Origin: Mycolicibacterium pulveris
GTDB taxonomy: Bacteria; Actinomycetota; Actinomycetes; Mycobacteriales; Mycobacteriaceae
Assembly: GCF_010725725.1 (NCBI RefSeq)
Contig: NZ_AP022599.1
Location: 4,278,001-4,342,000, forward strand
Length of the DNA stretch: 64,000 nt
Direction of reading: 5' to 3'
The notes beneath the pieces were generated by a model. It saw only the letters and a program-made list of their open reading frames with translations, was not told where the DNA came from and searched no databases. The position numbers were made by a program, and so were the translations under genes. Below, piece after piece: positions 43,799 to 62,522 of this stretch; within the stretch, counting starts at the first letter, position 1, and each line of letters begins with the position of its first letter.

Positions 43799-43833
43799 GG
43801 CCTTGGTCCCAGGCCGATATGGCCATTGGACCC
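43799..43833. promoter_or_regulatory. Two DosR-like half-boxes in tandem upstream of the phosphoribosyltransferase-hydrolase gene
   Basis: GGCCTTGGTCCC (43799-43810) and GGCCATTGGACCC (43821-43833) are near-repeats starting 22 bases apart, about two helical turns. Reverse-complemented they read GGGACCAAGGCC and GGGTCCAATGGCC, the pattern of weaker DosR sites. They end 36 bases before the ATG. Confidence 0.5.
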
Positions 43834-43869
43834 TTCTGCAGGCACGCGTCGGCACGGCAGACTCGCGCC

Positions 43870-45279
43870 ATGACAAGCATGGACGACCGTAACGACGCGC
43901 AGGGTCGACCGGGTCGCCGGCTGGCCTGGTTACGCGCTGACAACAGACCGTTTGAGGACCGTGTCGATGCCGGGCGTCAGCTGGGCACGCGCCTGGATTC
44001 CTTCCGTGGCCAGGACGTGGTCGTGCTGGGTCTGCCGCGAGGCGGAGTGCCGGTTGCCTTCGAAGTCGCACGGAGGCTACAGGCACCGCTGGATGTTCTG
44101 GTGGTGCGCAAACTCGGGGTGCCGTATCAGCCCGAACTTGCGTTCGGCGCCATCGGCGAGGACGGCGTGCGGGTGGTCAACAACGCTGTCGTAGAACAGA
44201 CCCGGCTGAGCCAAGACGACATGGAGGCGGTGGAACGCGCGGAGCGGCGCGAGTTGGAGCGGCGCTCGGAGAGGTTCCGCGGTGACCACGGCCGGATCTC
44301 ACTCGGCGGGCGAGTGGCCATCATCGTCGACGACGGCGTGGCCACCGGTGCGACGGCGAAGGCGGCCTGCCAGGTCGCCCGTGCCGAGGGCGCCAGTCGG
44401 GTGGTGTTGGCGGTTCCGATTGGCCCAGACGATGTCGCCGAGAGGTTCGCCGACTACGCCGACGAGATTGTCTGCCTGCAGACCCCCCCGTTCTTCTACG
44501 CAGTCGGGCAGGGGTACCGCAATTTCACCCAAACCTCCGACGATGAGGTGATCGCGCTGCTCGACCGAGCCCGCGCCGACTTCGCCGACGCGGCCGCGGC
44601 AAGTGTCGCCGGCAACCCACGACTCGGTGACGGGGAAGTCGAGGTCCGTGCCGGGGAGGTGACGGTGAACGGGCATCTGACGGTGCCCGAGCAGCCCATC
44701 GGGATCGTGGTCTTCGCCCACGGTAGTGGCAGCAGCCGCCACAGCCCCCGTAATCGTTACGTCGCCGAGGTGTTGAACCGCGCCGGGCTGGCGACCCTGC
44801 TGTTCGACCTGCTCACCCCGGCCGAGGAGGTGGACCGTGCCAACGTCTTCGACATCGACTTGCTGGCCGAGCGACTCGTCGGCGTCACTCAGTGGCTGAC
44901 CGACCAGCCCGACACCGCGACGCTGCCGGTCGGCTACTTCGGAGCCAGCACCGGGGCGGGCGCAGCGTTGGTCGCCGCCGCCGATCCGCGGGTGCGGGTG
45001 GCCGCGGTGGTCTCCCGCGGCGGACGGCCCGACCTGGCAGGTCAGGCGCTGAGCAAGGTGCACGCGCCCACGCTGCTGATTGTGGGAGGACATGACAACC
45101 TGGTCCTCGAACTGAATCGTCGGGCCGAAGCAGCGATCCCGGCACCCTGCAGGCTCGAGGTGATTCCTGGGGCCACCCACCTGTTCGAAGAACCGGGTGC
45201 TCTCGACCAGGTGGCGGTGTTGGCCCGCGACTGGTTCATCGACCACTTGAGCCGAATGGCCGCGAGCGCCAATCCGTAG
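43870..45279 (+). CDS. Phosphoribosyltransferase fused to an alpha/beta hydrolase (Rv0571c-like)
   Basis: A 469-aa fusion. The N-terminal phosphoribosyltransferase domain (about 25-220) has LGLPRGGVPVAFEVA and the PRPP loop VAIIVDDGVATGATA (about 153-167). The C-terminal dienelactone-hydrolase-like domain (about 265-465) has VVFAHGSGSSRHS, nucleophile elbow GASTGAGA (about 358-365) and a late His in GATHLFEEPG. The M. tuberculosis homolog Rv0571c is DosR-induced. Substrate unknown; the fusion suggests cleavage and salvage of a ribosylated compound, which is inference. Confidence 0.85.
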   Translation: MTSMDDRNDAQGRPGRRLAWLRADNRPFEDRVDAGRQLGTRLDSFRGQDVVVLGLPRGGVPVAFEVARRLQAPLDVLVVRKLGVPYQPELAFGAIGEDGVRVVNNAVVEQTRLSQDDMEAVERAERRELERRSERFRGDHGRISLGGRVAIIVDDGVATGATAKAACQVARAEGASRVVLAVPIGPDDVAERFADYADEIVCLQTPPFFYAVGQGYRNFTQTSDDEVIALLDRARADFADAAAASVAGNPRLGDGEVEVRAGEVTVNGHLTVPEQPIGIVVFAHGSGSSRHSPRNRYVAEVLNRAGLATLLFDLLTPAEEVDRANVFDIDLLAERLVGVTQWLTDQPDTATLPVGYFGASTGAGAALVAAADPRVRVAAVVSRGGRPDLAGQALSKVHAPTLLIVGGHDNLVLELNRRAEAAIPAPCRLEVIPGATHLFEEPGALDQVAVLARDWFIDHLSRMAASANP

Positions 45280-45536: not shown

Positions 45537-47198
45537 ATGAGCAGCCCCGCACAGATCATGGCCTCGCCGTCACTCGGCGACATGACGGTGGGCGAAGCGC
45601 TTGCGATGGCAGCCTCGGCTCGTCCGGACGCTCCCTACATCACCGCCGGCTCGGCAGAGCTCTCCTTCGCCGAACTCTGGCAGAGCAGTGGGCGGTTGGC
45701 GACCGGGCTCGTCGAACTCGGGTTGCGCAAGGGTGACCACGTCACCACTGCGGTGACCAACCGCATCGAATGGGTGGTGATCGCGTTCGCGCTCGCCCGG
45801 CTGGGCGTGGTCAATGTCCTTGCGAATCCCCGATATCGCGCAGGTGAGTTGGCCTACCTGGTGGCTCACTCTCGGTCTCGCTTCGTCATCTCCGACCGCG
45901 CCCTCGACACGGATTTCGACTCTGCTCTCACCCACGAGTTGATGGTGCTGGGTGGGTCTGGCAGCGCCTCCGGGGTGGACCGTCTCCAGGTCGAAAGTGC
46001 GCACGGCCGGCCGGATCCGCGGTGGAAAGCGCTGTTGGAAACGCCCGTCGACACGAGCGCCATTGCCAGCGTGGCCGGGACTCTCAATGCCGACGACGTG
46101 CTCTATATCCTCTACACCTCGGGCACCACCGGTCGGCCCAAGGGCAGCATGACCCGACACGGCGCCGCCCTGTTGAATGCCTTCAACAGCGGAGAGCGCA
46201 TGGGTTTCGACAGCGGTGATCGACTTCTGTGCTATCTGACCATGACGCACTGCTTCGGCGCGGTGAACGCACTGCTGAACACGCTCACCCACCAGTGCCG
46301 TCTCGATATCCTGAACGAATTCGATCCGGGTGTGGTCCTGGATCTGATCGAAGAGCGGCAGATCACCGCGATCTACGGTGTGCCAACCCACTTCACCATG
46401 CTCTGTGACGCGGCCGCGCAGGGCCCCGCTCGAGATCTCCACACCCTGGTCAAAGGCTGCTGCGGTGGTGGCGAGATCACACCGGAACTACAGGCGGCGA
46501 TCGCCGCCCACCTGGGCATCGAATCACTCACCCACGCCTATGGCATGAGCGAATCGACGGCGATCATCAGCCAGAGCCTGCACTCCTGGCCCCGCGAGCG
46601 CCGATTGGGCACTGCCGGTCTACCGCTGCCCGGTGTCGAAGTGCGCATCACGGATCCCGAGACCGGTATGGAATGCCCGACCGGATCCGCCGGAGAGATC
46701 GCCATACGCGGATTCAACGTCCACGCCGGCTACTTCATGCTCGACCCCGATCCCTCGCTACGAGAAGATGGTTGGTGGGAAACCGGTGACATCGGCGTGC
46801 GCGGACCCGACGGAGCGATCACGATCCGCGGCCGGTCCAAGGACATGTACAAGACCGGCGGTTTCAACGTCTACCCTGTCGAGGTCGAGACATGCTTGGC
46901 CCGGCATCCAGCGGTCGGTGACGTGGCCGTGGTCGGTGTGCCCGATCGGCGCAAGCAGGAGGTCGGGGCTGCCTTCGTCGTGCCCGTACCCGAAACGACG
47001 GTCGACCCCGAGGAGTTGCGGGCGTTGGCCCGTTCCGAGCTCGTTGGATACAAGGTTCCCGAATACGTCTTCCTCGTCGAGGAGCTACCGCGCAGTTCGG
47101 CCACGCTCAAGGTGCAAAAGCACGTGCTACGGGAGCGTGCCCGAAGCCTGCTCGAAACCGCCCACTCCGCGGCGTCGGCCCGCATCGGTTCGTCGTGA
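45537..47198 (+). CDS. Acyl-CoA synthetase (FadD-type AMP ligase)
   Basis: A 553-aa adenylate-forming ligase activating a carboxylic acid to its CoA thioester. Motifs: YILYTSGTTGRPKGSM (about 184-199), YGMSEST (about 334), WWETGDIGVRGPDG (about 412), DMYKTGGFNVYPVEVE (about 435-450) and a C-terminal Lys in SATLKVQKHVL. It is the first gene of a plus-strand operon; the crotonase gene starts inside its stop (GTGA). Substrate not identifiable. Confidence 0.93.
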   Translation: MSSPAQIMASPSLGDMTVGEALAMAASARPDAPYITAGSAELSFAELWQSSGRLATGLVELGLRKGDHVTTAVTNRIEWVVIAFALARLGVVNVLANPRYRAGELAYLVAHSRSRFVISDRALDTDFDSALTHELMVLGGSGSASGVDRLQVESAHGRPDPRWKALLETPVDTSAIASVAGTLNADDVLYILYTSGTTGRPKGSMTRHGAALLNAFNSGERMGFDSGDRLLCYLTMTHCFGAVNALLNTLTHQCRLDILNEFDPGVVLDLIEERQITAIYGVPTHFTMLCDAAAQGPARDLHTLVKGCCGGGEITPELQAAIAAHLGIESLTHAYGMSESTAIISQSLHSWPRERRLGTAGLPLPGVEVRITDPETGMECPTGSAGEIAIRGFNVHAGYFMLDPDPSLREDGWWETGDIGVRGPDGAITIRGRSKDMYKTGGFNVYPVEVETCLARHPAVGDVAVVGVPDRRKQEVGAAFVVPVPETTVDPEELRALARSELVGYKVPEYVFLVEELPRSSATLKVQKHVLRERARSLLETAHSAASARIGSS

Positions 47199-48040
47199 CG
47201 GGCGCAGCCTTGCGAACCGCAGACACAAATCTTGTTGTCGAGCAACATGATCGGGTGACGGTACTGACACTCAACCGGCCCGATACCCACAATGCGATCT
47301 CGTTCGATCTGGCGTGCGCGATCGCGGACGCCGTCGAGGCCGCCGGCACAGAGGATCGGACGCGCGTTGTCGTCATCCGGGGGGCCGGCAAGTCCTTCTC
47401 GGCGGGTTATGACCTCGGAACCGGCTCCTACGGCTCGCGCTCTTCCGATGAGAACGCCAAGTATCTGCGCGAGCTGTCCAGGCAGTGGGAACGGGTGTAC
47501 CGCTGCTCGATACCCGTGATCGCACAGGTGCACGGCTATTGTCTGGCCGGGGGAACCGATCTCGCGGGACACTGTGACATCACCGTGGTGGCCGACGACG
47601 CCACCATCGGAGTTCCCGCGGTGCGGTCCATGGGGGTGGCGCTTTCCCAGATGTGGCTCTACCACGTTGGGCCCCAGTGGACCAAGCGGCTACTTCTGAC
47701 CGGCGACACCATCACCGGAAGGCTGGCCGCCCGTATCGGTTTCGCGCTTGCGTCGGTGCCCGCCGCGGACCTGGGCGAAGAGGTCATGCGGTTGGCGCAC
47801 CGAATATCGCTCGTCGAACGAGAGATGCTCATCGGTAACAAGCGGGTCATCAACCACGGTATCGACCTGATGGGACGCGAGGCCCTTCACGACATGGCTG
47901 CTCAGCAAGACGCTCTGGCTCATGAAACCCCGCCGGCGCGCGCATTCGCCGCGCTGATCCGCCAAGAGGGACTGCAAGCCGCCCTGCGAGCTCGCGACGA
48001 GCCATTTGGACACTCGCGGCTGGATGTCCACTGTGAGTGA
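47195..48040 (+). CDS. Crotonase-superfamily protein lacking the canonical catalytic glutamates
   Basis: A 281-aa protein with crotonase features: LTLNRPDTHNAISFDLACAI (about 19-38), the oxyanion segment IRGAGKSFSAGYDL (about 60-73) and AQVHGYCLAGGTDLAGHCDI (about 110-129). In enoyl-CoA hydratases one Glu lies in GGGxELA and one in GxPE; here these read GGTDLAG and GVPAVRSMG, so both are replaced (Asp and Ala). Another activity such as isomerisation, C-C bond cleavage or hydrolysis is more likely. The start GTG overlaps fadD, and the next gene overlaps its 3' end. Confidence 0.88.
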   Translation: MTGAALRTADTNLVVEQHDRVTVLTLNRPDTHNAISFDLACAIADAVEAAGTEDRTRVVVIRGAGKSFSAGYDLGTGSYGSRSSDENAKYLRELSRQWERVYRCSIPVIAQVHGYCLAGGTDLAGHCDITVVADDATIGVPAVRSMGVALSQMWLYHVGPQWTKRLLLTGDTITGRLAARIGFALASVPAADLGEEVMRLAHRISLVEREMLIGNKRVINHGIDLMGREALHDMAAQQDALAHETPPARAFAALIRQEGLQAALRARDEPFGHSRLDVHCE

Positions 48041-49208
48041 ACCTTTCGACAATTTCCCGGGGACCTACGCGTGGGATGTCGACGAGCGATCCTTTCGCGC
48101 CGAGATCCGCGACTACCTGACCCAGGACCCTGCACCGATTTTCGACCGCTTCGACCTCAAGACCTCGCTGGCGGAGATGCTGGCCTGGCACCGGAGGCTG
48201 GCGGCCGCCGGGTTTCCTCTGCCGAATTGCCCGACCGAATTCGGCGGTCGGCCACGGTCGGTCGGCATGCAGCTGGTCCAGGCCGAGGAGATGGCGGCGG
48301 TCGGAGCCAACTTCGCGGTCAACATCGTGGGTATCTCCATGCTGACCCCGCTGCTGATGGCATTGGGCAGCGCCGAGCAGCAAGCGCGCTGGCTTCCGCC
48401 GGTGGCGCACGGAGAAGAGTTGTGGTGCCAGCTCTTCAGCGAACCCGAAGCGGGGTCCGATCTGTTCGGTATGCGAACGACGGCGATCATCGACGGTGCG
48501 GACCTGCGGGTCACCGGCCAGAAGATCTGGAGTAGCACCGCGGAGCATGCCGACTTCGGATTGATGCTCGCGCGCACCGAACCGGGGTCGACAGGCCGAC
48601 GCGGGATCGGTTGTTTCGTGGTCGACATGAAATCGCCGGGGATCGACGTACGTCCGATCAAGCAGATGGGTGGCTCGACGGAGTTCGCCGAGGTGTTTTT
48701 CGACGATGTGACCGTGCCGGTGGCCAACCTGATCGGGACGCCTGGCGACGGCGCGGATGCGGCGCTGAAAGTGTTGGCGGCCGAGCGTAGCGGCTTGGCG
48801 ATGGGAAGCTACGCCGTCTTCGCCGCGCAGTTCCAGGAACTGGTCCGGCTGTGCGCGTCGCGGGGCACAAGCGGGCATCGCCACGCCCTGGCCAAGCTGT
48901 GGGAGGCGTTGGCGGTGCAGCGACTCAACGCCATCCGACAGGCCGGTGCAGAAACCGAAGAGCCGACGCGGGTGATGGCTCTGGCCGCCGCCGGCAAGCT
49001 GCGCGGCGGCACGCTGTCGGTGATGATGCAGGATCTCCGCGCCGAACTGCTCGGCATGGAGATAGCGGCCGTCGATCCGAGCGACCAGGCCGCGGCACTG
49101 GTCAGCGAGCGGTTCGTCAGTTCGCTCGGACTGAGCCTGGGTGGGGGCACCCATCAGATGCAACGCAACGCGATCGCCGAGGGGCTGCTGAAAATGCCGC
49201 GTTCCTAA
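48024..49208 (+). CDS. Acyl-CoA dehydrogenase, first of an adjacent pair
   Basis: 394 aa from ATG 48024 (GTG 48033 is an alternative; both overlap the crotonase gene end). Family features: LWCQLFSEPEAGSDLFGMRT (about 133-152), GQKIWSSTAEHADFGLMLAR (about 166-185) and the C-terminal GGGTHQMQRNAIAEGLLKMP (about 373-392). It oxidises an acyl-CoA at alpha-beta with FAD. Adjacent paired genes in actinobacterial steroid catabolism encode alpha2beta2 heterotetramers, so this and the next gene may do the same. Confidence 0.92.
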   Translation: MSTVSEPFDNFPGTYAWDVDERSFRAEIRDYLTQDPAPIFDRFDLKTSLAEMLAWHRRLAAAGFPLPNCPTEFGGRPRSVGMQLVQAEEMAAVGANFAVNIVGISMLTPLLMALGSAEQQARWLPPVAHGEELWCQLFSEPEAGSDLFGMRTTAIIDGADLRVTGQKIWSSTAEHADFGLMLARTEPGSTGRRGIGCFVVDMKSPGIDVRPIKQMGGSTEFAEVFFDDVTVPVANLIGTPGDGADAALKVLAAERSGLAMGSYAVFAAQFQELVRLCASRGTSGHRHALAKLWEALAVQRLNAIRQAGAETEEPTRVMALAAAGKLRGGTLSVMMQDLRAELLGMEIAAVDPSDQAAALVSERFVSSLGLSLGGGTHQMQRNAIAEGLLKMPRS

Positions 49209-49242: not shown

Positions 49243-50379
49243 ATGCGTTTGCAGCGCAGTGACGAACAGCACGACTTGCGAGACGCGGTGCGCGGTCTCT
49301 TCGCCGATTGCGCCGCAGAGCCTGAAGTGCGTCGCCTCATGGACACGGCCGAAGGCTGGGATTCCGTGGTCTGGTCGCAGATATCCGCGATGGGGCTGGT
49401 CAGCCTTGCGATACCAGAGACCTTCGGCGGCGACGGCGGCGGGTGGGACGACGTGGGCGTGGTACTGGAGGAAGCGGGACGATGCCTGCTGTGCGCGCCT
49501 TACTTCTCGACCGTCATGCTGGGGGTGAACACCCTATTGGCATCGAACGATACCGCAGCACAACGCGATTACCTCCCGGCGATTGCGAACGGCGATCTGA
49601 CGGCGACCTTGGCGGTGGTCGAGGACGCGGGCCGATGGGGTGAAGACGCGGTGGAGCTTCGCGCGACCCGAACCCCGACTGGGTATCGCCTCGACGGTCA
49701 CAAATCGTTCGTGATCGACGGTGCGACGGCAGGTCTCATTCTCGTCGCCGGACGAACGGCCCACGGCATCAGCGTATTTGCCGTCGAACGCGGTGCATCC
49801 GGGCTGAGTTGCGTTGGCCTGGACACGGTGGACCTCACTCGCAAACAGGCAAGGCTGGAGTTCGCGGGCACGCCGGCGCGGCTCGTCGGTGAAGAGACGG
49901 CGGGGTGGGCGCTCGTCGAGCACGTCGTCGATCGGGCGGCCATCGGGTTGGCCGCAGAGCAAGTCGGAGGGGCGCAACAAGCGCTGGATATGGCGGTGTC
50001 ATATGCCAAGGTGCGACACCAGTTCGGTCGTCCGATTGGATCATTCCAGGCCATCAAGCACGCGTGCGCCGACATGTTGGTCGACGTCGAGTCGGCGCGC
50101 AGCGTCGCGTATTACGGGCTATTGGCGGCTACGGAGCCAGCTAGCGACCTGTCGCTGATCGCCGCCCTGGCCAAGGCGCACTGTTCGGACGCGTATGCGC
50201 GGGTGGCATCGCAGTCGATCTTGGTGCACGGTGCCATCGGCTACACCTGGGAGCACGCGGCGCAGTTGCACTTCAAGCGCGCGAAGACCGGCCAGCTGAT
50301 GTTCGGTACCCCGACGGGCCATCGTGAAGCGGTCGCCGCCCGACTGTGCGCGACGGTGCATCACCTAGAACCCAAATGA
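49243..50379 (+). CDS. Acyl-CoA dehydrogenase, second of an adjacent pair
   Basis: A 378-aa protein, more divergent than its neighbour: the first-half flavin motif is reduced (VEDAGRWGEDAVELRATRTP, about 125-144), while the C-terminal half has VSYAKVRHQFGRPIGSFQAI (about 251-270) and VHGAIGYTWEHAAQLHFKRA (about 324-343), with Glu in the TWEH position used as catalytic base in such subunits. It probably pairs with the preceding enzyme. An ATG with GGAGG precedes; 34 bases separate the two genes. Confidence 0.9.
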   Translation: MRLQRSDEQHDLRDAVRGLFADCAAEPEVRRLMDTAEGWDSVVWSQISAMGLVSLAIPETFGGDGGGWDDVGVVLEEAGRCLLCAPYFSTVMLGVNTLLASNDTAAQRDYLPAIANGDLTATLAVVEDAGRWGEDAVELRATRTPTGYRLDGHKSFVIDGATAGLILVAGRTAHGISVFAVERGASGLSCVGLDTVDLTRKQARLEFAGTPARLVGEETAGWALVEHVVDRAAIGLAAEQVGGAQQALDMAVSYAKVRHQFGRPIGSFQAIKHACADMLVDVESARSVAYYGLLAATEPASDLSLIAALAKAHCSDAYARVASQSILVHGAIGYTWEHAAQLHFKRAKTGQLMFGTPTGHREAVAARLCATVHHLEPK

Positions 50380-50461: not shown

Positions 50462-50596
50462 ATGTCGAGGTCCTATGAGAACCGCAGGCGGCGACAGGGG
50501 GTCTACGCATTCCTCGTCGCTTACCTGGGTCTTTTGCTGACGGTCATCGCGTTGGAGGCCGTGCGCAGTCATCAATTGGGCTACGGCCTGTTCTGA
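50462..50596 (+). CDS. 44-aa single-helix membrane peptide
   Basis: MSRSYENRRRRQGVYAFLVA followed by a hydrophobic helix (YLGLLLTVIAL) and a short tail ending HQLGYGLF. The basic N-terminus before the helix predicts an inside N-terminus. A strong GGAAGGGAG ribosome site lies eight bases upstream, and another tiny membrane gene follows 25 bases downstream, so it looks genuinely expressed. I do not recognise the family. Confidence 0.7.
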   Translation: MSRSYENRRRRQGVYAFLVAYLGLLLTVIALEAVRSHQLGYGLF

Positions 50597-50621
50597 AAGC
50601 CTGTTCTGAAAGGACGTTTCG

Positions 50622-50738
50622 ATGAACAACGCATATCTGCCGCTGCGCGACATCTTCTGGTACGGCGTGATGGTCGGCGCCGATGTCCTCATCGTCATGT
50701 TCTGGTGGTTCGTGATGAGCCGCCTCGGCGATCGCTGA
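50622..50738 (+). CDS. 38-aa single-helix membrane peptide
   Basis: MNNAYLPLRDIFWYGVMVGA then DVLIVMFWWFVMSRLGDR. One aromatic-rich transmembrane helix of about 20 residues ends in an Arg. AAAGGA (50609-50614) is a fitting ribosome site. Size and design resemble accessory peptides of respiratory or transport complexes, but no family is recognised. Confidence 0.7.
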   Translation: MNNAYLPLRDIFWYGVMVGADVLIVMFWWFVMSRLGDR

Positions 50739-50754
50739 GCGGGCGAGGTTGACG

Positions 50755-50949
50755 ATGATGGCTGAATCAGACAACTCTGCCCGATCAGGCTCCGCGCGCA
50801 TAGACGACGAGCAAGGTTTCGCCGACCTCGATCCCTTGGTCAAGTTCGGTGTCATACTCGCCGCCATTCTGTTTTGCGGCGTCATCATCGAGGGCGCGAT
50901 GTTGGTGCCCTATGCACTGATCCAAAACGGCTGGACACCAGGACGATAA
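50755..50949 (+). CDS. 64-aa single-helix membrane protein
   Basis: A polar, acidic N-terminus (MMAESDNSARSGSARIDDEQ) is followed by LDPLVKFGVILAAILFCGVI, a transmembrane helix, then EGAMLVPYALIQNGWTPGR. ATG at 50755 or 50758 is the likely start; a TTG at 50749 is possible. It ends 10 bases before the next gene, so the four membrane genes appear to form one unit. Confidence 0.7.
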   Translation: MMAESDNSARSGSARIDDEQGFADLDPLVKFGVILAAILFCGVIIEGAMLVPYALIQNGWTPGR

Positions 50950-50959
50950 GGAAAAGGTA

Positions 50960-51676
50960 ATGGCGACATCGCTGCAGCCGGCGAATGACCAGCTGGCCGA
51001 CGACCTCGATGCCCAGAGCGGGCAGCTTCGGCGGGCCGAGAAGTGGTTCTTCGCCGGTGTCATCATCACTGGCTCAGTGCTCGTGGGACCCCTGGGCCTA
51101 CCGGTGCTGATCTACGGCATCTATCAACTACGAAAGATCTCCAAGCTCGGGCGGCACGCGGTCCGGCCCTGGCATGTCTCGGTGATCGGGGCATTCGCGA
51201 TCATCGATGCGGCAGCGAATTTCGTTGGATGGTCATTCTGTACGTTCGCCGCTCGAACCGGGGTGGGATGGTCGTTCTTGCGGGACGGTTACGGGTTCGG
51301 CTTCGACGGTTTCTATCACGTCGATTACGGCTCCACGTTCATGATCAACGGGGTGGCAGGGCCCGGTGAACAAGCCTTCATCTTCATGGCGATGTTCGTG
51401 CTCTGGCCGATGCGGCTATGTGCGGCCTGGGCCTTCCTGAAGATGAAGCGCTGGGGATTCCGCTGGATGATCACCACCACCTGGATGCTCGTGTTGTTCT
51501 GGGTGGGTTGGACAACCAATGGCTTGATGTACTTCGACGAGCGCTTCGGTGCAATCGGTGATCCCGCGTTCGGCTACCTCGGCTGGTGGCTGTTCAACAG
51601 TGTCTACATCCTTGGTCCGGTGGTCATGGTTCCGTACCTCTACACCGTGAATAAGGAACTGTGGAGCGAGGAGTGA
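50960..51676 (+). CDS. Five-helix integral membrane protein of unknown family
   Basis: A 238-aa protein with an AAGGAAAAGG ribosome site. Hydrophobic segments at about 31-55, 72-95, 135-158, 166-188 and 202-226; loops carry many aromatic residues (for example GYGFGFDGFYHVDYG, about 108-122) and the end is YLYTVNKELWSEE. His and Asp/Glu residues lie near the membrane surface, but no known catalytic motif is recognised. It closes the operon with two acyl-CoA dehydrogenases and three tiny membrane proteins, and could be a membrane oxidoreductase or transporter core. Confidence 0.75.
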   Translation: MATSLQPANDQLADDLDAQSGQLRRAEKWFFAGVIITGSVLVGPLGLPVLIYGIYQLRKISKLGRHAVRPWHVSVIGAFAIIDAAANFVGWSFCTFAARTGVGWSFLRDGYGFGFDGFYHVDYGSTFMINGVAGPGEQAFIFMAMFVLWPMRLCAAWAFLKMKRWGFRWMITTTWMLVLFWVGWTTNGLMYFDERFGAIGDPAFGYLGWWLFNSVYILGPVVMVPYLYTVNKELWSEE

Positions 51677-51701: not shown

Positions 51702-53687
51702 TTAGCGGGCTTCGTCCTCGTGGTCCTCGAGGACCACGAGGACCTCGCCGCTGTTCACTTGGTCACCGGGGGTGATCCTCACGGCGACGACCGTGGCGGG
51801 CCCGGTCGCGGTGATGGTGTGTTCCATTTTCATCGCTTCCAAAACCACCAGGGAATCACCTTTGACCACACGCGCACCCACTTCCACGTTGACCCTCACA
51901 GCGATGCCGGGCATCGGCGCCACCAGGGAGCCGGCCTCGATTCGAGACTCCGGTTCGGCGAAGCGATTCCGCACGCCCAAGGCCCGCACCGATTCCGGAC
52001 CTGTGACATAAATGCGATCGGCCGCGAACTCGACGGTCAGCCTGCGGCGCACGCCGTCCACCGTGATGTCGACCAGATTCGGCGAGCTCTGGTGAACTGT
52101 CAGATTCGGCCTCGTGTCGTCCAGAGTGATGTCATATCCGTTGTGGCGAACCAGAAGCCGCACCGAGTGGGCGGTATCGCCGTCCTGCAGAAGCACTTCC
52201 TGCGGAACGGCCGGGGTCGATCGGAAGCCGGCAGGCAAGCTTCGCAGCACCGGCGCAGTGTCGCGACCGTGCTCGACCACCGCCAGCGCGGCGGCGAGGA
52301 GATAGGCCGAGGATGCCCCGGCCGCCTCTCGGCGCGCCTCCTCCACGAGGTCAGCCGGTGGGTGGTCGGACAGAAACGATGTGGTGGTGTCGCCGCGGCG
52401 GTAGGCGGGATCACGCAGGATGCCGACGAGTAGGTCACGGTTGGACGTGACACCGTCCACGCACGCATGTTGGAGCGTTGTGGCGAGGGCTCCTGCGGCC
52501 TCCGCGCGGGAGTCGCGGTGCGCGATGACTTTGGCCAGCAGCGGGTCGTAGTGGATCGACACCTCCGACCCGGTGCCGACGCCGGTATCCACCCGGATAC
52601 CGGGCGGGTCCGGGATGGCGAATCGAGCAAGGGTTCCCGAGGCCGGCAGGAAACCCGCCTCGACATCCTCGGCGTAGAGCCGCGCCTCGATCGCATGCCC
52701 GCGGACGTGAAAATCGGTCAACTCCTGGGGTAGTCGGCCACCCGCGGCGACGATGAGCTGAAGGCGAACGAGATCCAGACCGGTGGTGAGCTCGGTGACC
52801 GGATGTTCGACCTGCAGGCGGGTGTTCATCTCCAGGAAGTAGAACTCGCCATCGGTATCCAGGAGAAACTCGACGGTGCCCGCCCCGACATAGTCGATGG
52901 CCTTGGCGGCGGCGACAGCCGCGGCGCCCATGGCCTCGCGCAGCGGCGGGTCCACGGCGGGCGATGGAGCTTCTTCGATGATCTTCTGATACCGGCGCTG
53001 TATCGAGCACTCGCGTTCTCCGAGATGGAATACCTGGCCGTGCTCGTCGCCGAACACCTGGATCTCGATATGCCTGGCCCCGCGCAGATAGCGTTCCAGA
53101 AACACCGTGTCGTCACCGAACGCCGCGCGCGCTTCGCGACGGCACGCCGCGACATGCGCGTCGAGGGTGGCCTCGTCGTGCACCAGCCGCATCGCCTTTC
53201 CGCCGCCCCCGGCACTGGCCTTGACCAACAGCGGGTAACCGACTCGCCGGCCAGCCGCCGCGACGTCATCGGAGCCTGTGAGCTCGGCCGACGGCAGCAG
53301 CGGTACACCGGCGTTCGCCATCGTTCGCTTGGCCTCGGTCTTGGATCCCATGCGACGGATCGCCTCGGGGGAGGGACCGATGAACGTGATATCCGCGTCC
53401 GCGCACCGCTGTGCGAACGACGCGTTCTCGGCGAGGAAGCCATAGCCGGGATGGATGGCGTCGGCTCTGGCGTGCCGGGCGGCCTCGAGCACCCGCTCGA
53501 TGTCGAGATAGCTCTCGGCGGCGCTATAGCCGGGCAGGCGCACTGCGACGTCGGCATCGCGGACATGGGATGAGTCCGCGTCGGCATCGGAGTACACCGC
53601 GGCGACCCCGATGCCAAGTTCACGGCATGTGCGGGTGATGCGGCGGGCGATTTCGCCCCGGTTGGCGATCAGGATGCGGTGGAACAC
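51702..53687 (-). CDS. Biotin-dependent acyl-CoA carboxylase alpha subunit (biotin carboxylase + BCCP)
   Basis: 661 aa from a GTG at 53687. The biotin carboxylase half has HRILIANRGEIARRI (2-16), the ATP-grasp glycine loop KASAGGGGKAMRLV (about 159-172), RYQKIIEEAPSP (about 234) and EMNTRLQVEHPVTE (about 287-300). The C-terminal carrier domain holds the biotinylation site VLEAMKMEHTI (about 621). It supplies carboxybiotin to the beta subunit encoded divergently at 53794. The intergenic region contains candidate operator b. Confidence 0.95.
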   Translation of the reverse strand: MFHRILIANRGEIARRITRTCRELGIGVAAVYSDADADSSHVRDADVAVRLPGYSAAESYLDIERVLEAARHARADAIHPGYGFLAENASFAQRCADADITFIGPSPEAIRRMGSKTEAKRTMANAGVPLLPSAELTGSDDVAAAGRRVGYPLLVKASAGGGGKAMRLVHDEATLDAHVAACRREARAAFGDDTVFLERYLRGARHIEIQVFGDEHGQVFHLGERECSIQRRYQKIIEEAPSPAVDPPLREAMGAAAVAAAKAIDYVGAGTVEFLLDTDGEFYFLEMNTRLQVEHPVTELTTGLDLVRLQLIVAAGGRLPQELTDFHVRGHAIEARLYAEDVEAGFLPASGTLARFAIPDPPGIRVDTGVGTGSEVSIHYDPLLAKVIAHRDSRAEAAGALATTLQHACVDGVTSNRDLLVGILRDPAYRRGDTTTSFLSDHPPADLVEEARREAAGASSAYLLAAALAVVEHGRDTAPVLRSLPAGFRSTPAVPQEVLLQDGDTAHSVRLLVRHNGYDITLDDTRPNLTVHQSSPNLVDITVDGVRRRLTVEFAADRIYVTGPESVRALGVRNRFAEPESRIEAGSLVAPMPGIAVRVNVEVGARVVKGDSLVVLEAMKMEHTITATGPATVVAVRITPGDQVNSGEVLVVLEDHEDEAR

Positions 53688-53720
53688 GGAATCCTCTCGG
53701 CAGGCGACGGAGACAGTAAG

Positions 53721-53740
53721 TATAATGTCCAACAGTTAAA
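53721..53740. promoter_or_regulatory. Candidate GntR operator between the carboxylase genes (site b)
   Basis: TATAATGTCCAACAGTTAAA contains ATGTCCAACAG, the same half-palindrome as the sites at 45481 and 60048. It sits in the divergent promoter region of the alpha and beta subunit genes. Confidence 0.6.
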
Positions 53741-53793
53741 TCTATCGCGGTATTGTTTCACATGCCATCGGCGTCGAAGTGGACAGGAGGGCC

Positions 53794-55392
53794 ATGCAGC
53801 GGCTCATGACGTCGGTTGATCAGGGGTCAGCCAACTACGTCGACAACCGAAACGCGATGGAGCAGGCGCTGGCCGAATTGCGGACACACCTGGACGAGTC
53901 GTTGGTCGGGGGTGGCGAAAAATACGTCGCGCGACACCGCGAACGCGGGCGCCTGCTGCCCAGGGAGCGCATCGAACTGCTCGTGGACATCGGAAGCCCG
54001 ATGATCGAGCTGTCACCGCTGGCCGCCGCAGGGACCGGATTTCCGACGGGCGGCAGCGTCGTGACCGCGATCGGTGTCGTCGAGGGAGTGGAGTGTGCGC
54101 TGATCGCCAGCGACCCCACTGTGCGGGGCGGCGCGATCAACCCGATATCGGTGACCAAGATTCTTCGGGCCATGGACATCGCCCGAGAGAACAGGTTGCC
54201 GTTACTGTTTCTGGTCGAGTCCGGGGGCGCGGACCTGCCCAGCCAGGGTGACTTTTATCTGCGGGGTGGCAACCAGTACCGCCATCTCACCCAGATGTCG
54301 GCGTTGGGTGTCCCCACTGTGGCGTTGGTCTTCGGCAACGCCACCGCTGGCGGTGCCTACGTTCCCGGCATGTGTGACTACACCATTCTGATCAAGAACC
54401 AGAGCAAGGTATTTCTCGGCGGGCCACCGCTGGTGAAAATGGCCACCGGGGAGGAGTCTGACGATGAGACGCTGGGCGGCGCGGAGATGCATGCTCGCGA
54501 CTCCGGACTGTGCGACTACCTGGCCGACGACGAGATGGATTGTATTCGGCTTGCCAGACAGATTATTTCGCACCTTGGATGGCGCAAGCTCGGTCCGGAG
54601 CCCGGGCCTGTGGTGGAGCCACTGGCGGATCCGGACGATCTGCTCGGCATCGCGTCGGCAGATCCGAAGGTGCCCTTCGATGTCCGCGAAGTTCTCGCCC
54701 GAATCGTTGACGGTAGCGAGTTCGACGAATTCAAGCCCTATTACGGCCAGGCGCTGCTGACCGGGTGGGCGCGTATCCACGGCTATCTGGTGGGGATCCT
54801 GGCCAACAAGCAGGGCGTGCTGTTCTCTGAAGAGTCCGAGAAGGCATCGCAATTCATTCAATTGGCGAACCAGATGGATCAGCCGCTGATATTCATCCAC
54901 AACTGCACCGGGTTCATGGTCGGCGCCGAGTACGAGAAGCGGGGCATCGTCAAGGACGGGGCGAAGATGATCAACGCGGTAGCCAACAGCACCGTGCCGC
55001 ACATCGCGTTGATGGCCGGCGCGTCCTACGGTGCCGGCAACTACGGCATGTCCGGGCGGCCGTTCAATCCCCGGTTTGCCTTCTCCTGGCCGACGGCACG
55101 AGTTGCTGTGATGGGCGGAACGCAATTGGCAGGGGTGCTCTCGATCGTGGCGCGCCAATCCGCGCAGGCTCAGGGCAAGCCGTTCGACGAGGATGCCGAC
55201 GCGAAGATGAGGCAAGCCATCGAGGCGCAGATCGAGGCCGAGTCCACGGCGCTCTTCAACACTGCCCGCATCTACGACGACGGGATCATCGACCCCAGGG
55301 ATACCCGGCACGTGCTCGGCATGGCGTTGTCGGTGACCCATTCCGCCGAGGTGCGCGGGGTCAAAGGGGGCTACGGCGTGTTCCGCATGTAG
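53794..55392 (+). CDS. Acyl-CoA carboxylase beta subunit, methylcrotonyl/geranyl-CoA carboxylase type
   Basis: 532 aa from ATG 53794, which lies very close to an AGGAGG site; ATG 53806 is an alternative. Carboxyltransferase features: RERGRLLPRERIELLVD (about 46), FLVESGGADLPSQGDFYLRG (about 139-158), FGNATAGGAYVPGM (about 182) and, in the second half, FIHNCTGFMVGAEYEKRGIV (about 368-387) and GASYGAGNYGMSGRPFNPRF (about 411-430), the pattern of MCC/GCC beta chains rather than propionyl-CoA carboxylase. It transfers CO2 to an unsaturated branched acyl-CoA. Confidence 0.9.
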   Translation: MQRLMTSVDQGSANYVDNRNAMEQALAELRTHLDESLVGGGEKYVARHRERGRLLPRERIELLVDIGSPMIELSPLAAAGTGFPTGGSVVTAIGVVEGVECALIASDPTVRGGAINPISVTKILRAMDIARENRLPLLFLVESGGADLPSQGDFYLRGGNQYRHLTQMSALGVPTVALVFGNATAGGAYVPGMCDYTILIKNQSKVFLGGPPLVKMATGEESDDETLGGAEMHARDSGLCDYLADDEMDCIRLARQIISHLGWRKLGPEPGPVVEPLADPDDLLGIASADPKVPFDVREVLARIVDGSEFDEFKPYYGQALLTGWARIHGYLVGILANKQGVLFSEESEKASQFIQLANQMDQPLIFIHNCTGFMVGAEYEKRGIVKDGAKMINAVANSTVPHIALMAGASYGAGNYGMSGRPFNPRFAFSWPTARVAVMGGTQLAGVLSIVARQSAQAQGKPFDEDADAKMRQAIEAQIEAESTALFNTARIYDDGIIDPRDTRHVLGMALSVTHSAEVRGVKGGYGVFRM

Positions 55393-55419
55393 GCCCGGAG
55401 GTCGGTGCTTGCCAATGCG

Positions 55420-56181
55420 TCACCGCAGTGGCGGTTCGTGCAGCTCCGTTTGCCGCACGAGCCAGTCCGTGGCGTCCCGCGCGAGAATGGTCAGCTCGTC
55501 CGGCGCGCAACGCAGGCACGGCGACACGACGGTTCCGAGCACGGCAATAACGTCGTCGCGGTAACGTGTCGGCACCGCACCGATATCGACAACCACGGTG
55601 GTGGCCCCCACCGCATCACGGCGACGCCTGATGTCCTGCAACGCCGCCGCGTCGGGGACCACCGTTCCATGGGCCCATGCGAGGAACATCATCGAATCGC
55701 CCTGTGTCAGTGGGTCTGCCGTCCCCAGTGTCGAGCCAGCGTCGATCGTCCAGGTAGGAATGCTCGGCTGCACGGGTGCAGGGGTCACCGGCATCACCCG
55801 ACCGTCGTCGAGCGACCATCCCGTCCACGCGCCGAGGATCGCAGCGAGATCCTCGCGCCAGCCCTCGTCCGAGTGAATGCGCAGTATCAGCTCGAGCCGA
55901 CCTCCCGACATCGCATCCAGGACGCCGATGTCCTCGGCGATCCGCAGGGGCGCCGCCGAGCCGCGCAACGTGAGCACCACCGGGATTCGAAGGTGTCGGG
56001 TGCAGGTGGCGACGGCGCCCGCCGCGGCCATCACGTACGTGTCGTCGCTGTTCGGGGGCCCGGGCCTGATTGACCCCACGACGAGGGCATCGATGTTGTG
56101 GTTCTGGGCGACCCCGGCCAGGCGCCGGATCTCGGCGGCGTCCGCGCCGGGTGCCGACACAGCGAGCCGCGGGGCGCTCAC
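55420..56181 (-). CDS. LLM (luciferase-like) oxidoreductase family protein, short
   Basis: A 253-aa TIM-barrel-type protein: NHNIDALVVGSIRPGPPN (about 29-46), VLTLRGSAAPLRIAEDIGVL (about 70-89) and DAMSGGRLELILRI (about 90-103), as in flavin- or F420-dependent LLM enzymes, though shorter than usual (about 300-350 aa). It overlaps the preceding LLM gene by four bases (ATGA), so the two are probably subunits or sequential enzymes. Confidence 0.8.
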   Translation of the reverse strand: MSAPRLAVSAPGADAAEIRRLAGVAQNHNIDALVVGSIRPGPPNSDDTYVMAAAGAVATCTRHLRIPVVLTLRGSAAPLRIAEDIGVLDAMSGGRLELILRIHSDEGWREDLAAILGAWTGWSLDDGRVMPVTPAPVQPSIPTWTIDAGSTLGTADPLTQGDSMMFLAWAHGTVVPDAAALQDIRRRRDAVGATTVVVDIGAVPTRYRDDVIAVLGTVVSPCLRCAPDELTILARDATDWLVRQTELHEPPLR

Positions 56182-57164
56182 GCGCGCCTCCCGAGCTGCG
56201 GTAAGACCTCGTCCGCGAGCAGATCCAGACAGCGGCGCAGCGCGTTGCCGGTGACGCCGTCGAAGCGCACCCGCAGCGCCAGGGTGTCCGCCCCGGCGTC
56301 GATGAGCCGGCCGAGGCGGTCGACGACTTCCCCCGGGCTGCCGAAGATGGCCTGCCTTGTCATCTGCTCGGCGAGCGAGTCACGGTGTGCGCGCTGCGCA
56401 ACGGGATCATCAAGCCAGAAATTGGAGTAATGCCGCCACATTTCGAGCAACCGGCCCCTGGCCCACCGCACCATCGCCGGATCGGTGTCCACCCAGCACT
56501 CCCGCATCGCACCGAACCTCGGCGGTGGTCCAGCGCGCCGCTTCAGGTTCTCCGCCCAGGTATCCCGCATCGTCGAGAGGTTGCGGCTTGTCACGGTGGG
56601 CATGAGCAGTACCGAGGCGCCGAATCGCGCCGCCCGCGCGATACCGTCGGGAACACCTGTGCCAACCCATAAGTCGACGGGCCCCGTCCGCTCCCGCAGC
56701 GCGGCGCTGTCCAGCTGCGCCACCCGCTCTTCGGTGAGCCTCACCCGATCCGCAGGGCGTACCCGCGCAGCTGCGAATTCCACAGCGCGGTAACCGATCC
56801 CGACCCCCAGCCGGAATCGGTTCGGCGCAAGCGATGCGAGCGCGGCGGTTCCTTCCGCGATGCGTGCCGCGGTGTGAAAGGGCACGACCATCACGCCGGA
56901 GGCGATCCGCAGGGAGCTGGTAGCGCTCAACAGGCCCGCGGCAGCCGGGAAGAGCGAGGGGCAATAGCCGTCGTAGGAGAGGTGATGCTCACCCATCCAA
57001 AGGGTGTCGAACCCGAGCTGTTCGACGACGCGGGCCTCCGCCACCGCCTCCTCGTAGACCTTCGGGCGTGGGATCGGACGCATGTAGGTCGATTGCATGC
57101 TCCAGAAACCCACGCCGACCTCGAGAGCCCGTGTCGGCGTGCTGGCGGGTTCACGGACGGTCAA
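56178..57164 (-). CDS. LLM-class (F420- or flavin-dependent) oxidoreductase
   Basis: About 328 aa if a TTG at 57164 is the start (preceded by GGGGGTG). GFDTLWMGEHHLSYDGYCPS (about 47-66) and ASGVMVVPFHTAARIAEGTA (about 83-102) plus RFRLGVGIGYRAVEF are typical of LLM proteins; WMGEHH is the cofactor-site segment. No ATG fits at the expected N-terminus (EVGVGFWSMQST). The gene is divergent from the second fadD, with the perfect palindromic operator in the gap. Confidence 0.87.
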   Translation of the reverse strand: MTVREPASTPTRALEVGVGFWSMQSTYMRPIPRPKVYEEAVAEARVVEQLGFDTLWMGEHHLSYDGYCPSLFPAAAGLLSATSSLRIASGVMVVPFHTAARIAEGTAALASLAPNRFRLGVGIGYRAVEFAAARVRPADRVRLTEERVAQLDSAALRERTGPVDLWVGTGVPDGIARAARFGASVLLMPTVTSRNLSTMRDTWAENLKRRAGPPPRFGAMRECWVDTDPAMVRWARGRLLEMWRHYSNFWLDDPVAQRAHRDSLAEQMTRQAIFGSPGEVVDRLGRLIDAGADTLALRVRFDGVTGNALRRCLDLLADEVLPQLGRRA

Positions 57165-57209
57165 GCAACACCCCCACGTCACGGCCTTGGCAAGTTTCAA
57201 GGCTCCGGT

Positions 57210-57224
57210 TATTGTCGGACAATA
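57210..57224. promoter_or_regulatory. Perfect palindromic GntR operator candidate (site c)
   Basis: TATTGTC-G-GACAATA is a perfect 7-1-7 inverted repeat in the 86-base divergent promoter between the LLM and fadD genes. TTGTCGGACAA fits the FadR-subfamily consensus TNGTNNNACNA exactly. Confidence 0.75.
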
Positions 57225-57250
57225 CCGTGCCGCAGAGGAGTGGGTCGCGC

Positions 57251-58801
57251 ATGCTACTGAGTTCGATCGTCCACGGAGCCGCCATCCGCCGCCCGGCCTA
57301 CCCCGCCCTCGTCTGCGACGGCAACCGGTGGACATTCTGGGAACTCTCCGACCGGGTCAGCAAGCTGGCGGCCGGTCTGAGCATGCTCACCGAGCCGGGG
57401 GAGCGCGTGGCGATTCTGGCGGACAACTGTGTGGAGTACATCGACTGCCTGTACGGGGTATCGCAGGCCGGAAACACCCTTGCCCCGATCAACCAGCGGT
57501 TGGCCGTACCGGAGATCGAGTACGTGCTGTCCGACGCCGAACCGGCAGTGTTGATCGTTGGCAGCGAATACTACGAGCGGTTGGGCGAAATCCGTTCGGT
57601 CGTCCCGTCGATACGGCACGTCGTTGTCATTGGCGATGTCATTGGCGATGCACCACCTGGCGCATTGAGCTACCGATCACTGCTGAGTTCTACGGTGCTG
57701 GATCCATCGCGCGCGCACAGCGACGACAACGAGGTTGCCTGGCTGGTCTACACGTCGGGAACCACGGGTCGGCCGAAAGGCGCGATGCTGACCCATCGCA
57801 ACATCATCAGCGCGATGCTGAACGCGATGATCGAGTGGAAGCCGGACCGAGACGACCGCCAACTGTTCTGCTTTCCGCTGTGTCATGTCGCGGCGTTCAT
57901 CCCCCTCATGTACCACCTGCGGCAGGCCACGGTCGTGTTGATGCCCTCCTTTGACCCGGCCGTATTCCTGCGTCTCGTCGAGGAATACGAGATCACCCAT
58001 ACCGGCCTGGCACCGACGATGCTCAACTTCCTGTTGCAGCACCCCGACATCAACAGCGCTCGCCTCGACTCGGTCGAGCTTGTGGTCTACGGGTCGGCCC
58101 CGATGTCGCCCACGTTGTTGGAGAACGGAATCAAACGCTTCGGCGAAGTCTTCGTCCAGACTTACGGAATGACCGAACTCTCGGGCAACGTTCTGGTTTT
58201 GGGATTGGATCATCACCACCGCGCCATCACCGGAGAACCCGAATTGTTGGCCGCCGCGGGACAGATGGAATGCCTCGCGACGGTGCGGCTGGTCGACGAC
58301 GACATGAAAGACGTGGCGGTCGGTGACGTCGGTGAGATCGTCGTCTCGGGCGACCAGGTGATGAAAGGTTACTGGCGCGCCGAGGAGGCCACCGCGGAAG
58401 TTCTCGTCGACGGCTGGCTGCGCACCGGCGACCTCGCCAGGATGGATGAGGAGGGCCTGGTGTACGTCGTGGACCGAAAGAAGGACATGATCATCACCGG
58501 CGGAGAGAACGTCTACCCGCGCGAGGTCGAAGACGTCATCGCCCGGTTGCCGGGGCTGAGCGAGGTCGCCGTCATCGGGCTTCCCGACGATCGCTGGGGC
58601 GAGGCGGTCACCGCGGTTGTCGTTCCGCGCGCCGGTCAGACGGTCAAAGCTGAGGACGTGCGTGCGGCCTGCCGGGACTCCCTGGCGGGTTTCAAGGTGC
58701 CCAAGCGGGTCGAGTTCACCGACGAGCTGCCACGTAATGCAGCAGGCAAGGTAGTCAAAACGCTTCTGCGCGACCGATTCCTGGAACCGGGGAACGCATG
58801 A
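57251..58801 (+). CDS. Acyl-CoA synthetase (second FadD-type ligase)
   Basis: A 516-aa adenylate-forming enzyme. Motifs: WLVYTSGTTGRPKGAML (about 164-180), QTYGMTELSGN (about 302), GWLRTGDLARMDEEG (about 389), IITGGENVYPREVEDVI (about 414-430) and the C-terminal Lys in PRNAAGKVVKTLL. It differs clearly from the ligase at 45537, implying a different acid or a later step. ATG 57251 follows GAGGAG. It faces the CoA-transferase gene tail to tail. Confidence 0.93.
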   Translation: MLLSSIVHGAAIRRPAYPALVCDGNRWTFWELSDRVSKLAAGLSMLTEPGERVAILADNCVEYIDCLYGVSQAGNTLAPINQRLAVPEIEYVLSDAEPAVLIVGSEYYERLGEIRSVVPSIRHVVVIGDVIGDAPPGALSYRSLLSSTVLDPSRAHSDDNEVAWLVYTSGTTGRPKGAMLTHRNIISAMLNAMIEWKPDRDDRQLFCFPLCHVAAFIPLMYHLRQATVVLMPSFDPAVFLRLVEEYEITHTGLAPTMLNFLLQHPDINSARLDSVELVVYGSAPMSPTLLENGIKRFGEVFVQTYGMTELSGNVLVLGLDHHHRAITGEPELLAAAGQMECLATVRLVDDDMKDVAVGDVGEIVVSGDQVMKGYWRAEEATAEVLVDGWLRTGDLARMDEEGLVYVVDRKKDMIITGGENVYPREVEDVIARLPGLSEVAVIGLPDDRWGEAVTAVVVPRAGQTVKAEDVRAACRDSLAGFKVPKRVEFTDELPRNAAGKVVKTLLRDRFLEPGNA

Positions 58802-58822
58802 CTCCGGCCGCCGGTCGGCCGA

Positions 58823-60019
58823 CTACGTGTCGGGGTTGAGCTCGGCGAGCACCTCGCCGGTGTGCTCGCCGAGGCCGGGTGCCGGCAACCTGATGTCCCG
58901 GCTGGGGTGGGACCGAAGACGCCACGGGGGTCCCACCATTTCGGTTGGCCCGGCGATCGGATGGTCGGCCTTGATGATCGACTCGCGGTATTCCAGCTGC
59001 GGATCGTTGACGACCTCGGTAAGGGTGTGAATCGCTGACGACGGCACGCCCAACTCGGCGAACCGTGCCAGCCATTCGGTCGCCGGTCGACGCCGGAGAT
59101 GCTCGGCGACGGTGGCAACCACTCGCGGGCGGTTGCGTTGGCGTCCTGCGGTGGTGGCGAGTTCGGGATCGGCAGCCAACTGGTCGTCGCCAAGCGCCGA
59201 GCACAGACGTCGCCACATCATGTCGTTGCCCGCGGCCACGACGATCGGCCGGTCCTTGGTGGCGAAGCTCTGGTACGGGGTCAAGACCGAGTCGGTTGCG
59301 CCACAGGGGCGTGGTTCCTCGGCCCCGGCGAGAAACGCGGCGACCCTCGGGGCCATCAGGAACAGTGCCGAGTCCAACAACGAGATGTCGACGACATCGC
59401 CGTGCCCGGTGCGTCGCTGGTGGTACACCGCGCAGGCGATGGCGAAGGATGCGACGAGTCCGGCCACCGAGTCCGACAGAGCGGTACTGACCCGCTGTGG
59501 TGAGTCCGGTGACGCGCCCGTCACGCTCATCAGACCCGAACGTGCCTGGGCTATCAGGTCATAGCCGGACAGTGCGGAGTCCGGTCCGTCGAGGCCGAAT
59601 CCGGAGATGAGGCAGTAGACCAGGTCTGGGTGGCGCTGTGTCACCTCATCGGGGGCCAGCCCGAGCCGGTCGAGCTTCGACGGATTGAAGCTGGTGATGA
59701 GGACATCGCTGGCGGCGAGCAATCGCTGCAACGCCTCGGCGCCCTCGGAGGTCTTCAAGTCGAGGCATACGCCGCGCTTGTTCCGGTTTGCCGACAGAAA
59801 CCACGTGGAGGCGCCGTTCACGAACGGCGGGCCCCAGCGGCGGGTGTCGTCGCCGTGTGGGTCTTCGACCTTGACGACCGAGGCGCCCATGTCGGCGAGC
59901 AGCATCGTGGCCGTGGGCCCGGCGTAGGACCCGGTCAGATCGAGGACCCGCACGTCCGACAGCGGCAAATTCCTGTCGTCGGATTGGTCTTCGAGCCCCT
60001 TCTCCTGCCCGACGGACAT
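58823..60019 (-). CDS. Class III CoA transferase (CaiB/BaiF)
   Basis: A 398-aa protein: LSDVRVLDLTGSYAGPTATM (about 19-38), LLADMGASVVKVEDPHGDDT, LSANRNKRGVCLDLKTSEGA (about 74-93) and GDVVDISLLDSALFL (about 186), where Asp carries the acyl intermediate. It moves CoA between acids. Unlike the broken homolog at 40015, this copy is intact. A short upstream extension exists; the MSVGQEKG start is preferred. Confidence 0.92.
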   Translation of the reverse strand: MSVGQEKGLEDQSDDRNLPLSDVRVLDLTGSYAGPTATMLLADMGASVVKVEDPHGDDTRRWGPPFVNGASTWFLSANRNKRGVCLDLKTSEGAEALQRLLAASDVLITSFNPSKLDRLGLAPDEVTQRHPDLVYCLISGFGLDGPDSALSGYDLIAQARSGLMSVTGASPDSPQRVSTALSDSVAGLVASFAIACAVYHQRRTGHGDVVDISLLDSALFLMAPRVAAFLAGAEEPRPCGATDSVLTPYQSFATKDRPIVVAAGNDMMWRRLCSALGDDQLAADPELATTAGRQRNRPRVVATVAEHLRRRPATEWLARFAELGVPSSAIHTLTEVVNDPQLEYRESIIKADHPIAGPTEMVGPPWRLRSHPSRDIRLPAPGLGEHTGEVLAELNPDT

Positions 60020-60045
60020 TGCGCAGCCCCTCCCATGCCAAGGAC

Positions 60046-60062
60046 GACTGTTCGACATTATC
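60046..60062. promoter_or_regulatory. Candidate GntR operator in the CoA-transferase/gntR divergent region (site d)
   Basis: On the minus strand the sequence reads ATAATGTCGAACAGTC, nearly identical to the site between the carboxylase genes. It lies about 30 bases upstream of the CoA-transferase start; position is accurate to about one base. Confidence 0.6.
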
Positions 60063-60196
60063 ACATTGAGGTCAAGGGCCGACAGTTTGAGCGTGGGCCG
60101 GGAATCGACACGCCCGGTGTATTGTTGGAAACCACGAGGTCAATAGGGTTCAATAGGCATCAATCGCCGTTACTTAGGACACCGAAAGGGTGTGAA

Positions 60197-60925: not shown

Positions 60926-60940
60926 ACCGAACCTTGAGGT

Positions 60941-60966
60941 AAAAGACCGACAGTTGACAGTCGGCG
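60941..60966. promoter_or_regulatory. Candidate GntR operator upstream of ribBA (site e)
   Basis: GACCGACAG followed directly by TTGACAGTCGG gives two overlapping copies of the TGTC/GACA core. It lies in the 120-base gap between gntR and ribBA, so ribBA may have its own regulated promoter. Confidence 0.5.
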
Positions 60967-61045
60967 TCTCCTTGGATTGACTGGAGGGGCTGACGCGTCG
61001 GCACTGTCGCGGTGCCCTGCGGTCGGCTGGGCGAGGAGGACTTCG

Positions 61046-62356: not shown

Positions 62357-62444
62357 CCGACCCGCTCCGAACCGAAAAACACTGCGTTCACCCGGCCCGA
62401 GGCGACGGTTTCGTCCATCTCGGAGCAACGCATTCGCCCCATTA

Positions 62445-62500: not shown

Positions 62501-62522
62501 TTTTCCGGGAGGAGAGGCGGCG

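Follow-up and report, generated by a model that had tools for sequence, protein, structure and literature searches.

We describe a four-gene membrane module in Mycolicibacterium pulveris, located in a stretch of 64,000 nucleotides (the window; positions 4,278,001 to 4,342,000 of contig NZ_AP022599.1, assembly GCF_010725725.1). Three one-helix proteins, P1, P2 and P3, are encoded ahead of a larger core membrane protein. All four are genuine genes, and gene order, fusions and co-conservation indicate a conserved unit that is most probably a single membrane complex. The predicted structure of the core resembles human EBP (a sterol Delta8-Delta7 isomerase) and TMEM97, and in several lineages the module adjoins genes for a NorD/NorQ pair (a VWA protein and a MoxR ATPase). 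The reading we prefer, with a probability of roughly 0.42, is that the four proteins constitute a multi-subunit membrane enzyme that would carry out proton-transfer chemistry on a cyclic isoprenoid or steroid-like compound and would be remodelled by NorD/NorQ where this pair is present.

The module lies on the forward strand. P1 (44 aa; 50462-50596) has an Arg-rich N-terminus followed by its helix, and P2 (38 aa; 50622-50738) has an Asp within the helix and an aromatic FWW motif. P3 (50755-50949), with an IIEG..VP motif, is 64 aa long when counted from its first ATG and 63 aa from position 50758, the start that aligns with its relative in G255 (G-numbers denote genomes and L-numbers the loci compared; G000 is the genome holding the window). 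The core protein with the EBP/TMEM97-like predicted fold is 238 aa long (50960-51676). These are the four consecutive frames, with the same lengths, that a first-pass annotation had reported. Its description of one-helix proteins with a five-helix partner also holds: the best 19-residue Kyte-Doolittle means of P1, P2 and P3 (2.3, 1.9 and 2.65) mark a single strongly hydrophobic stretch in each, and the core model has about five membrane helices. The ribosome sites, all of which had been called good, are purine-rich ahead of P1, P2 and the core gene, whereas that of P3 is weaker (GAGG). Between P1 and P2 (window 50580-50620) there is a short direct duplication, CTGTTCTGAAAG repeated, that has no counterpart in G255.

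P1, P2 and P3 match no Pfam or NCBIfam family at E<=1, although such models can miss very short proteins. The absence of a recognised family had been anticipated for them, and the proposed likeness to small subunits of respiratory complexes finds no support among the same curated families. For the core, nothing exceeds a curated cut-off in either database; its sole match is to the EBP/EXPERA family of Pfam (PF05241), at 18.6 bits against a cut-off of 25.7, so that here the claim of no family needs qualifying.

Selection acts on all four frames. G255 retains them in the same order, with a core 87% identical to that of the window, and pairwise Nei-Gojobori dN/dS values between the two (from few sites in the small frames) are 0.16 for P1, 0.08 for P2, 0.34 for P3 and 0.10 for the core; the neighbouring second acyl-CoA dehydrogenase (FadE) gives 0.12. 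Thus neither the loss of the small frames in related genomes nor the lack of selection that would have spoken against them was found. Chance open frames might be suspected from the very small size of P1-P3 and their absence from Pfam and NCBIfam, and we consider the chance of this vanishingly small, given dN/dS far below 1, relatives beside nearly every core copy with no match on the opposite strand, and the fusions described below.

The core family is widespread. Of 297 genus genomes searched, themselves taken from a larger group, 164 carry a core relative, and G000 itself has four copies: that of the window, one single copy and one tandem pair. The window subtype is rare, being found among the genus genomes in G000, G255 and G318 only, with the next best match 43% identical. 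The four-gene order, which the first-pass annotation had advised looking for in other actinobacteria, recurs in G255 and in the distant G438. A search of the taxonomic order matched 27 of 298 genomes, including one false hit (G830), and a search of the phylum matched 9 of 396 genomes (3 of 236 genera), with only the best 7 to 9 candidates per genome scored in both cases. G830 was rejected as a distant relative: its 384-aa protein has one short matching stretch and no P1-P3 nearby at E<0.05. A contig search with a single core protein as the query found no relative; a profile search with the core family alignment (A1) found 343, of which the best 80 were kept and include named members of Mycobacterium, Mycolicibacterium, Mycolicibacter and Nocardia as well as Rhodococcus phenolicus. 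The plasmid collection yielded one core relative, annotated as a hypothetical protein in a Mycobacterium branderi record. G945, from another genus of the family, has two PF05241 matches (L189, L190), one of them over the cut-off; the core-family profile does not match these genes, and the stretches examined hold no P1-P3 relatives at E<0.05.

Small frames accompany almost all of these cores. The loci compared contain 239 core hits, 163 of them distinct, and first-round profiles (9, 6 and 5 seeds for P1, P2 and P3) matched at least one small frame near 138 of the 163 at E<0.05. That round missed P1 of the C-type loci, the portions of L043 corresponding to P1 and P2, and all three small frames in G438; these were picked by eye on order, length and hydrophobic pattern and, together with P2s of first cores, added as seeds. 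With second-round profiles (16, 16 and 10 seeds) and wider flanks, 162 of the 163 cores have a P1, P2 and/or P3 match at E<1e-3, compared with none when the opposite strand of those regions is searched. The counts do not represent independent events, as the seeds were taken from these very loci, most of which are mycobacterial and share descent. The one core without a match (L030) sits at a contig end.

Four arrangements were seen. P2 alone lies downstream of 63 cores, which are the first cores of tandem loci (two are pieces of one copy). P1 upstream with P3 downstream is found for 56, mostly second cores of tandem loci, although NorD/NorQ accompany a single core in at least L027, L088, L093 and L172. 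P1 and P2 precede, and P3 follows, 31 cores, and all three precede 12, including that of the window. P3 of types other than C and D is longer (139 aa in L021, 151 aa in L022) through an extra C-terminal domain that is present in many P3 relatives and that the window P3 lacks. In the long P3 proteins (L022:13280-13735, L021:9867-10286) this domain is conserved, with two conserved Cys and a WGIQP.P motif; the L022 protein has no Pfam match at E<=0.1.

L035, L112 and C-type loci (L036, L040, L041, L050 and L064) have P2 and P3 in a single frame, preceded in each case by a separate P1-like frame. P1 is kept, with P2 and P3 joined, in Mycobacterium sp. URHB0044 (L112; core 44% identical) and in G318 (core 45-47% identical). 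In L043, P1, P2 and P3 are fused, in the window order, in one frame of up to 220 aa. Gene fusions usually mean that the separate proteins function together. These fusions, of P2 with P3 in several loci and of all three in L043, make a single complex likely, and the membrane complex of four proteins suggested earlier remains the most likely arrangement. The composition of the module is well supported.

EBP and TMEM97 rank first by VIA-align for two predicted core structures, one of the window type and one of the tandem type, with TMEM97 level with EBP for the former. Residues D83, N87, D116, E137, R152 and R195 are invariant in all 161 aligned core copies. The spacing of D83, N87, D116 and E137 is roughly like that of the EBP catalytic residues, although the residue alignment is not reliable; those residues are His76, Glu80, Asp108, Glu122, Asn193 and Trp196 (PMC6549186, PMC4263179). 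No His or Cys is invariant across the 161 proteins. Certain His are kept in nearly all A- and B-type cores and are absent from those positions in the C and D types.

Linkage to NorD/NorQ recurs across several lineages. In tandem loci the two cores are separated by genes for a VWA protein and an ATPase of the CbbQ/NorQ type, and TetR, P450 or short-chain dehydrogenase genes accompany them. In tandem locus L022 the ATPase matches AAA_5 (126.5 bits) and CbbQ_C (74.4 bits) and its partner matches VWA (24.1 bits against a cut-off of 23.8); thus the AAA ATPase with CbbQ_C and adjacent VWA protein that mark a MoxR/VWA couple are found in the neighbour genes and not among the four proteins themselves. 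In G438, genes for P1, P2, P3, core, NorD and NorQ follow one another. Overall, NorD/NorQ adjoin the core gene in 16 of the 37 stretches compared, some of which come from the same record; these are tandem loci, some Nocardia loci, Rhodococcus phenolicus and G438. Within the stretch read, no such pair accompanies the B-, C- and window-type loci compared.

Among 28 hand-picked genomes, NorD and NorQ sharing 60% or more identity with the tandem pair are encoded by 14 of the 17 with a core match and by none of the 11 without, two of which have a more distant MoxR/VWA pair. The exceptions with a core are G318 (no pair at E<=1e-20), G091 (a distant pair only) and G183 (a core fragment and no pair). 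An obligatory role of the pair was rejected, since the modules of G318 and G091 have no cognate pair. G000 and G255 also encode an extra full-length NorD/NorQ pair downstream of the window-type module, at distances of 13 and 18 kb (39-41% and 55% identical). This diverged pair lies at L186:4665-7060 in G000, starting 0.7 kb past the window end, and at L187:12486-14938 in G255; in G000 it is flanked upstream by a luciferase-like monooxygenase gene and downstream by a P450 gene.

In the mechanism that we envisage, P1, P2, P3 and the core would assemble into one membrane complex. The core's EBP/TMEM97-like bundle of about five helices could form a cavity holding a membrane-dissolved hydrophobic ring compound, with the three single helices packed on the bundle as subunits shaping or closing that cavity. 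D83, N87, D116 and E137 (carboxylates and an amide) may transfer protons, for example to shift a ring double bond. The ring would then be opened to breakdown by monooxygenases, the CoA ligase, the acyl-CoA dehydrogenase pair, the crotonase and the acyl-CoA carboxylase. Where the pair exists, NorQ/NorD would remodel the complex into its active form.

Comparisons at the sequence level do not establish homology between the core and EBP: PF05241 has no match to the first core of L022, a six-frame PF05241 search of G000, with its four core copies, gives no match at E<=0.001, and a PDB sequence search with A1 returned two chance-like hits only.

Two doubtful readings are close rivals of the preferred enzyme. 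The adjoining NorD/NorQ genes of the 16 stretches and the invariant carboxylates of the core would also suit a membrane-bound metalloenzyme, either an oxygenase or an oxidoreductase acting on a hydrophobic compound, into which NorD/NorQ would insert a metal as they do FeB in nitric oxide reductase. According to one account (PMC9976466), FeB is placed in cNOR by NorQD, and a role in cofactor insertion is attributed to MoxR proteins with some reserve; the related qNOR needs no NorQD, hence modules without the pair are compatible with a metal. The same source has CbbQO acting on Rubisco and RavA/ViaA with fumarate reductase, and the pair therefore need not signal metal insertion. The absence of any invariant His or Cys, with the A/B-type His positions not kept in the C and D types, makes this reading unlikely, and a His-ligated metal in all members was rejected on that ground. 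Comparably unlikely is a non-catalytic complex serving to bind, carry or channel a hydrophobic substrate or product, or to scaffold soluble monooxygenases at the membrane. Moving of the substrate had also been suggested by the first-pass annotation. TMEM97 is a ligand-binding protein (the sigma-2 receptor) in the matched entries, and the conserved extra domain of many P3 relatives could dock a partner; however, no transporter family in Pfam or NCBIfam matched the four proteins, and the strict invariance of the six core residues exceeds what a greasy channel would need.

It was also proposed that the four proteins take electrons from the two acyl-CoA dehydrogenases encoded upstream. Proximity favours this, as the module starts 82 bases after the second dehydrogenase on the same strand, the same pair precedes the G255 module with three genes in between, and several B-type loci have acyl-CoA dehydrogenase relatives within some kb. 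However, the constant neighbour in the tandem and G438 loci is NorD/NorQ and not a dehydrogenase, none of the four proteins matches a redox-cofactor family (flavin, heme or iron-sulphur) at E<=1 in Pfam and NCBIfam, and the core models as EBP/TMEM97-like. We therefore consider this role highly improbable.

The preferred enzyme would share with EBP and TMEM97, of the EXPERA superfamily, the top-ranked predicted fold, about five helices, invariant acidic residues and a context of hydrophobic ring compounds. Unlike them, the core has no significant sequence similarity and leaves His76 and Glu80 unmatched, and the module sits in bacterial catabolic gene clusters with three one-helix partners and a MoxR/VWA pair, neither of which is mentioned in the excerpts of PMC6549186 and PMC4263179. 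EBP-like proteins of mycobacteria have appeared in print: excerpts of PMC4818103 describe a genomic island that has a TetR gene and three hypothetical proteins homologous to an M. rhodesiae EBP, and those of PMC9903846 list PF05241 for Mycobacterium, Mycolicibacterium, Microbacterium and Nocardia. Small subunits, fusions or a NorD/NorQ link are mentioned in neither set of excerpts, nor did we find an account of them in open-licence full-text literature, a coverage that leaves out most subscription journals. Like cNOR with NorQ/NorD, the module pairs an AAA_5 and CbbQ_C ATPase and a VWA partner with adjoining genes for a putative membrane complex; unlike cNOR, its core is no recognised heme-copper NorB (no such family at E<=1 in Pfam or NCBIfam). 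The NorQ/NorD of ammonia oxidisers were not used as a parallel, since they are placed beside nirK in the excerpts of PMC4084955.

Tentatively, the module may define a new class of multi-subunit membrane enzyme, in which three one-helix subunits (joined in certain lineages) and an EBP-like core are activated by their own MoxR/VWA pair for an as yet unassigned step of terpenoid or steroid breakdown in mycobacteria, Nocardia and relatives; it may have been overlooked partly because the subunits are too short for gene finders. The core is found in over half of the genus genomes searched, often as a tandem pair accompanied by NorD/NorQ, but neither it nor P1-P3 is named above cut-off by any Pfam or NCBIfam entry. 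If it is an enzyme, an EBP-like fold would be at work in bacterial catabolism, possibly as a new MoxR/VWA client. P1-P3 also offer a ready test set for small-protein annotation, as fusions in relatives show the partners of the separate peptides.

On the same strand the module follows the acyl-CoA genes of the apparent operon in which the first-pass annotation had placed it, namely an AMP-binding acyl-CoA synthetase (45537-47198), a crotonase/enoyl-CoA hydratase (47195-48040) and the two acyl-CoA dehydrogenases (48006-49208, whose true start may be inside the frame, and 49243-50379). Facing the module on the reverse strand is a biotin carboxylase with BT_MCC_alpha and biotin carrier domains (51702-53732), followed by a carboxyltransferase (53779-55392, forward), two luciferase-like monooxygenase genes (55420-57335, reverse) and a RibBA-like flavin synthesis gene with an alpha/beta hydrolase (60977-63428, forward). 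CoA ligase and CoA transferase genes also surround the module, and a luciferase-like monooxygenase, NorD, NorQ and P450 genes lie past the window edge (L186). The gene set at 51702-63428 (carboxylase pair, luciferase-like monooxygenases, CoA ligase, CoA transferase, RibBA-like gene and hydrolase) suggests a larger catabolic island, perhaps for a terpenoid, and from general pathway knowledge we take the neighbours to fit cyclic isoprenoid or steroid breakdown. Luciferase-like and carboxylase genes beside the module were looked at in G000 and G255 only.

In G255 (L062:9920-12997) an APH-type kinase and two DUF7064/7065 proteins are encoded between the second acyl-CoA dehydrogenase and P1. Ecdysteroid-kinase-like genes occur near the G318 and G438 modules and are 41% identical to each other. 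The C-type locus of G318 (L064; 4985-10988) lies beside KshA-type Rieske, SnoaL and amidohydrolase genes, and C-type locus L065 beside a short-chain dehydrogenase and a luciferase-like gene. Upstream of the operon, a single frame at window 43819-45279 combines phosphoribosyltransferase and alpha/beta hydrolase domains.
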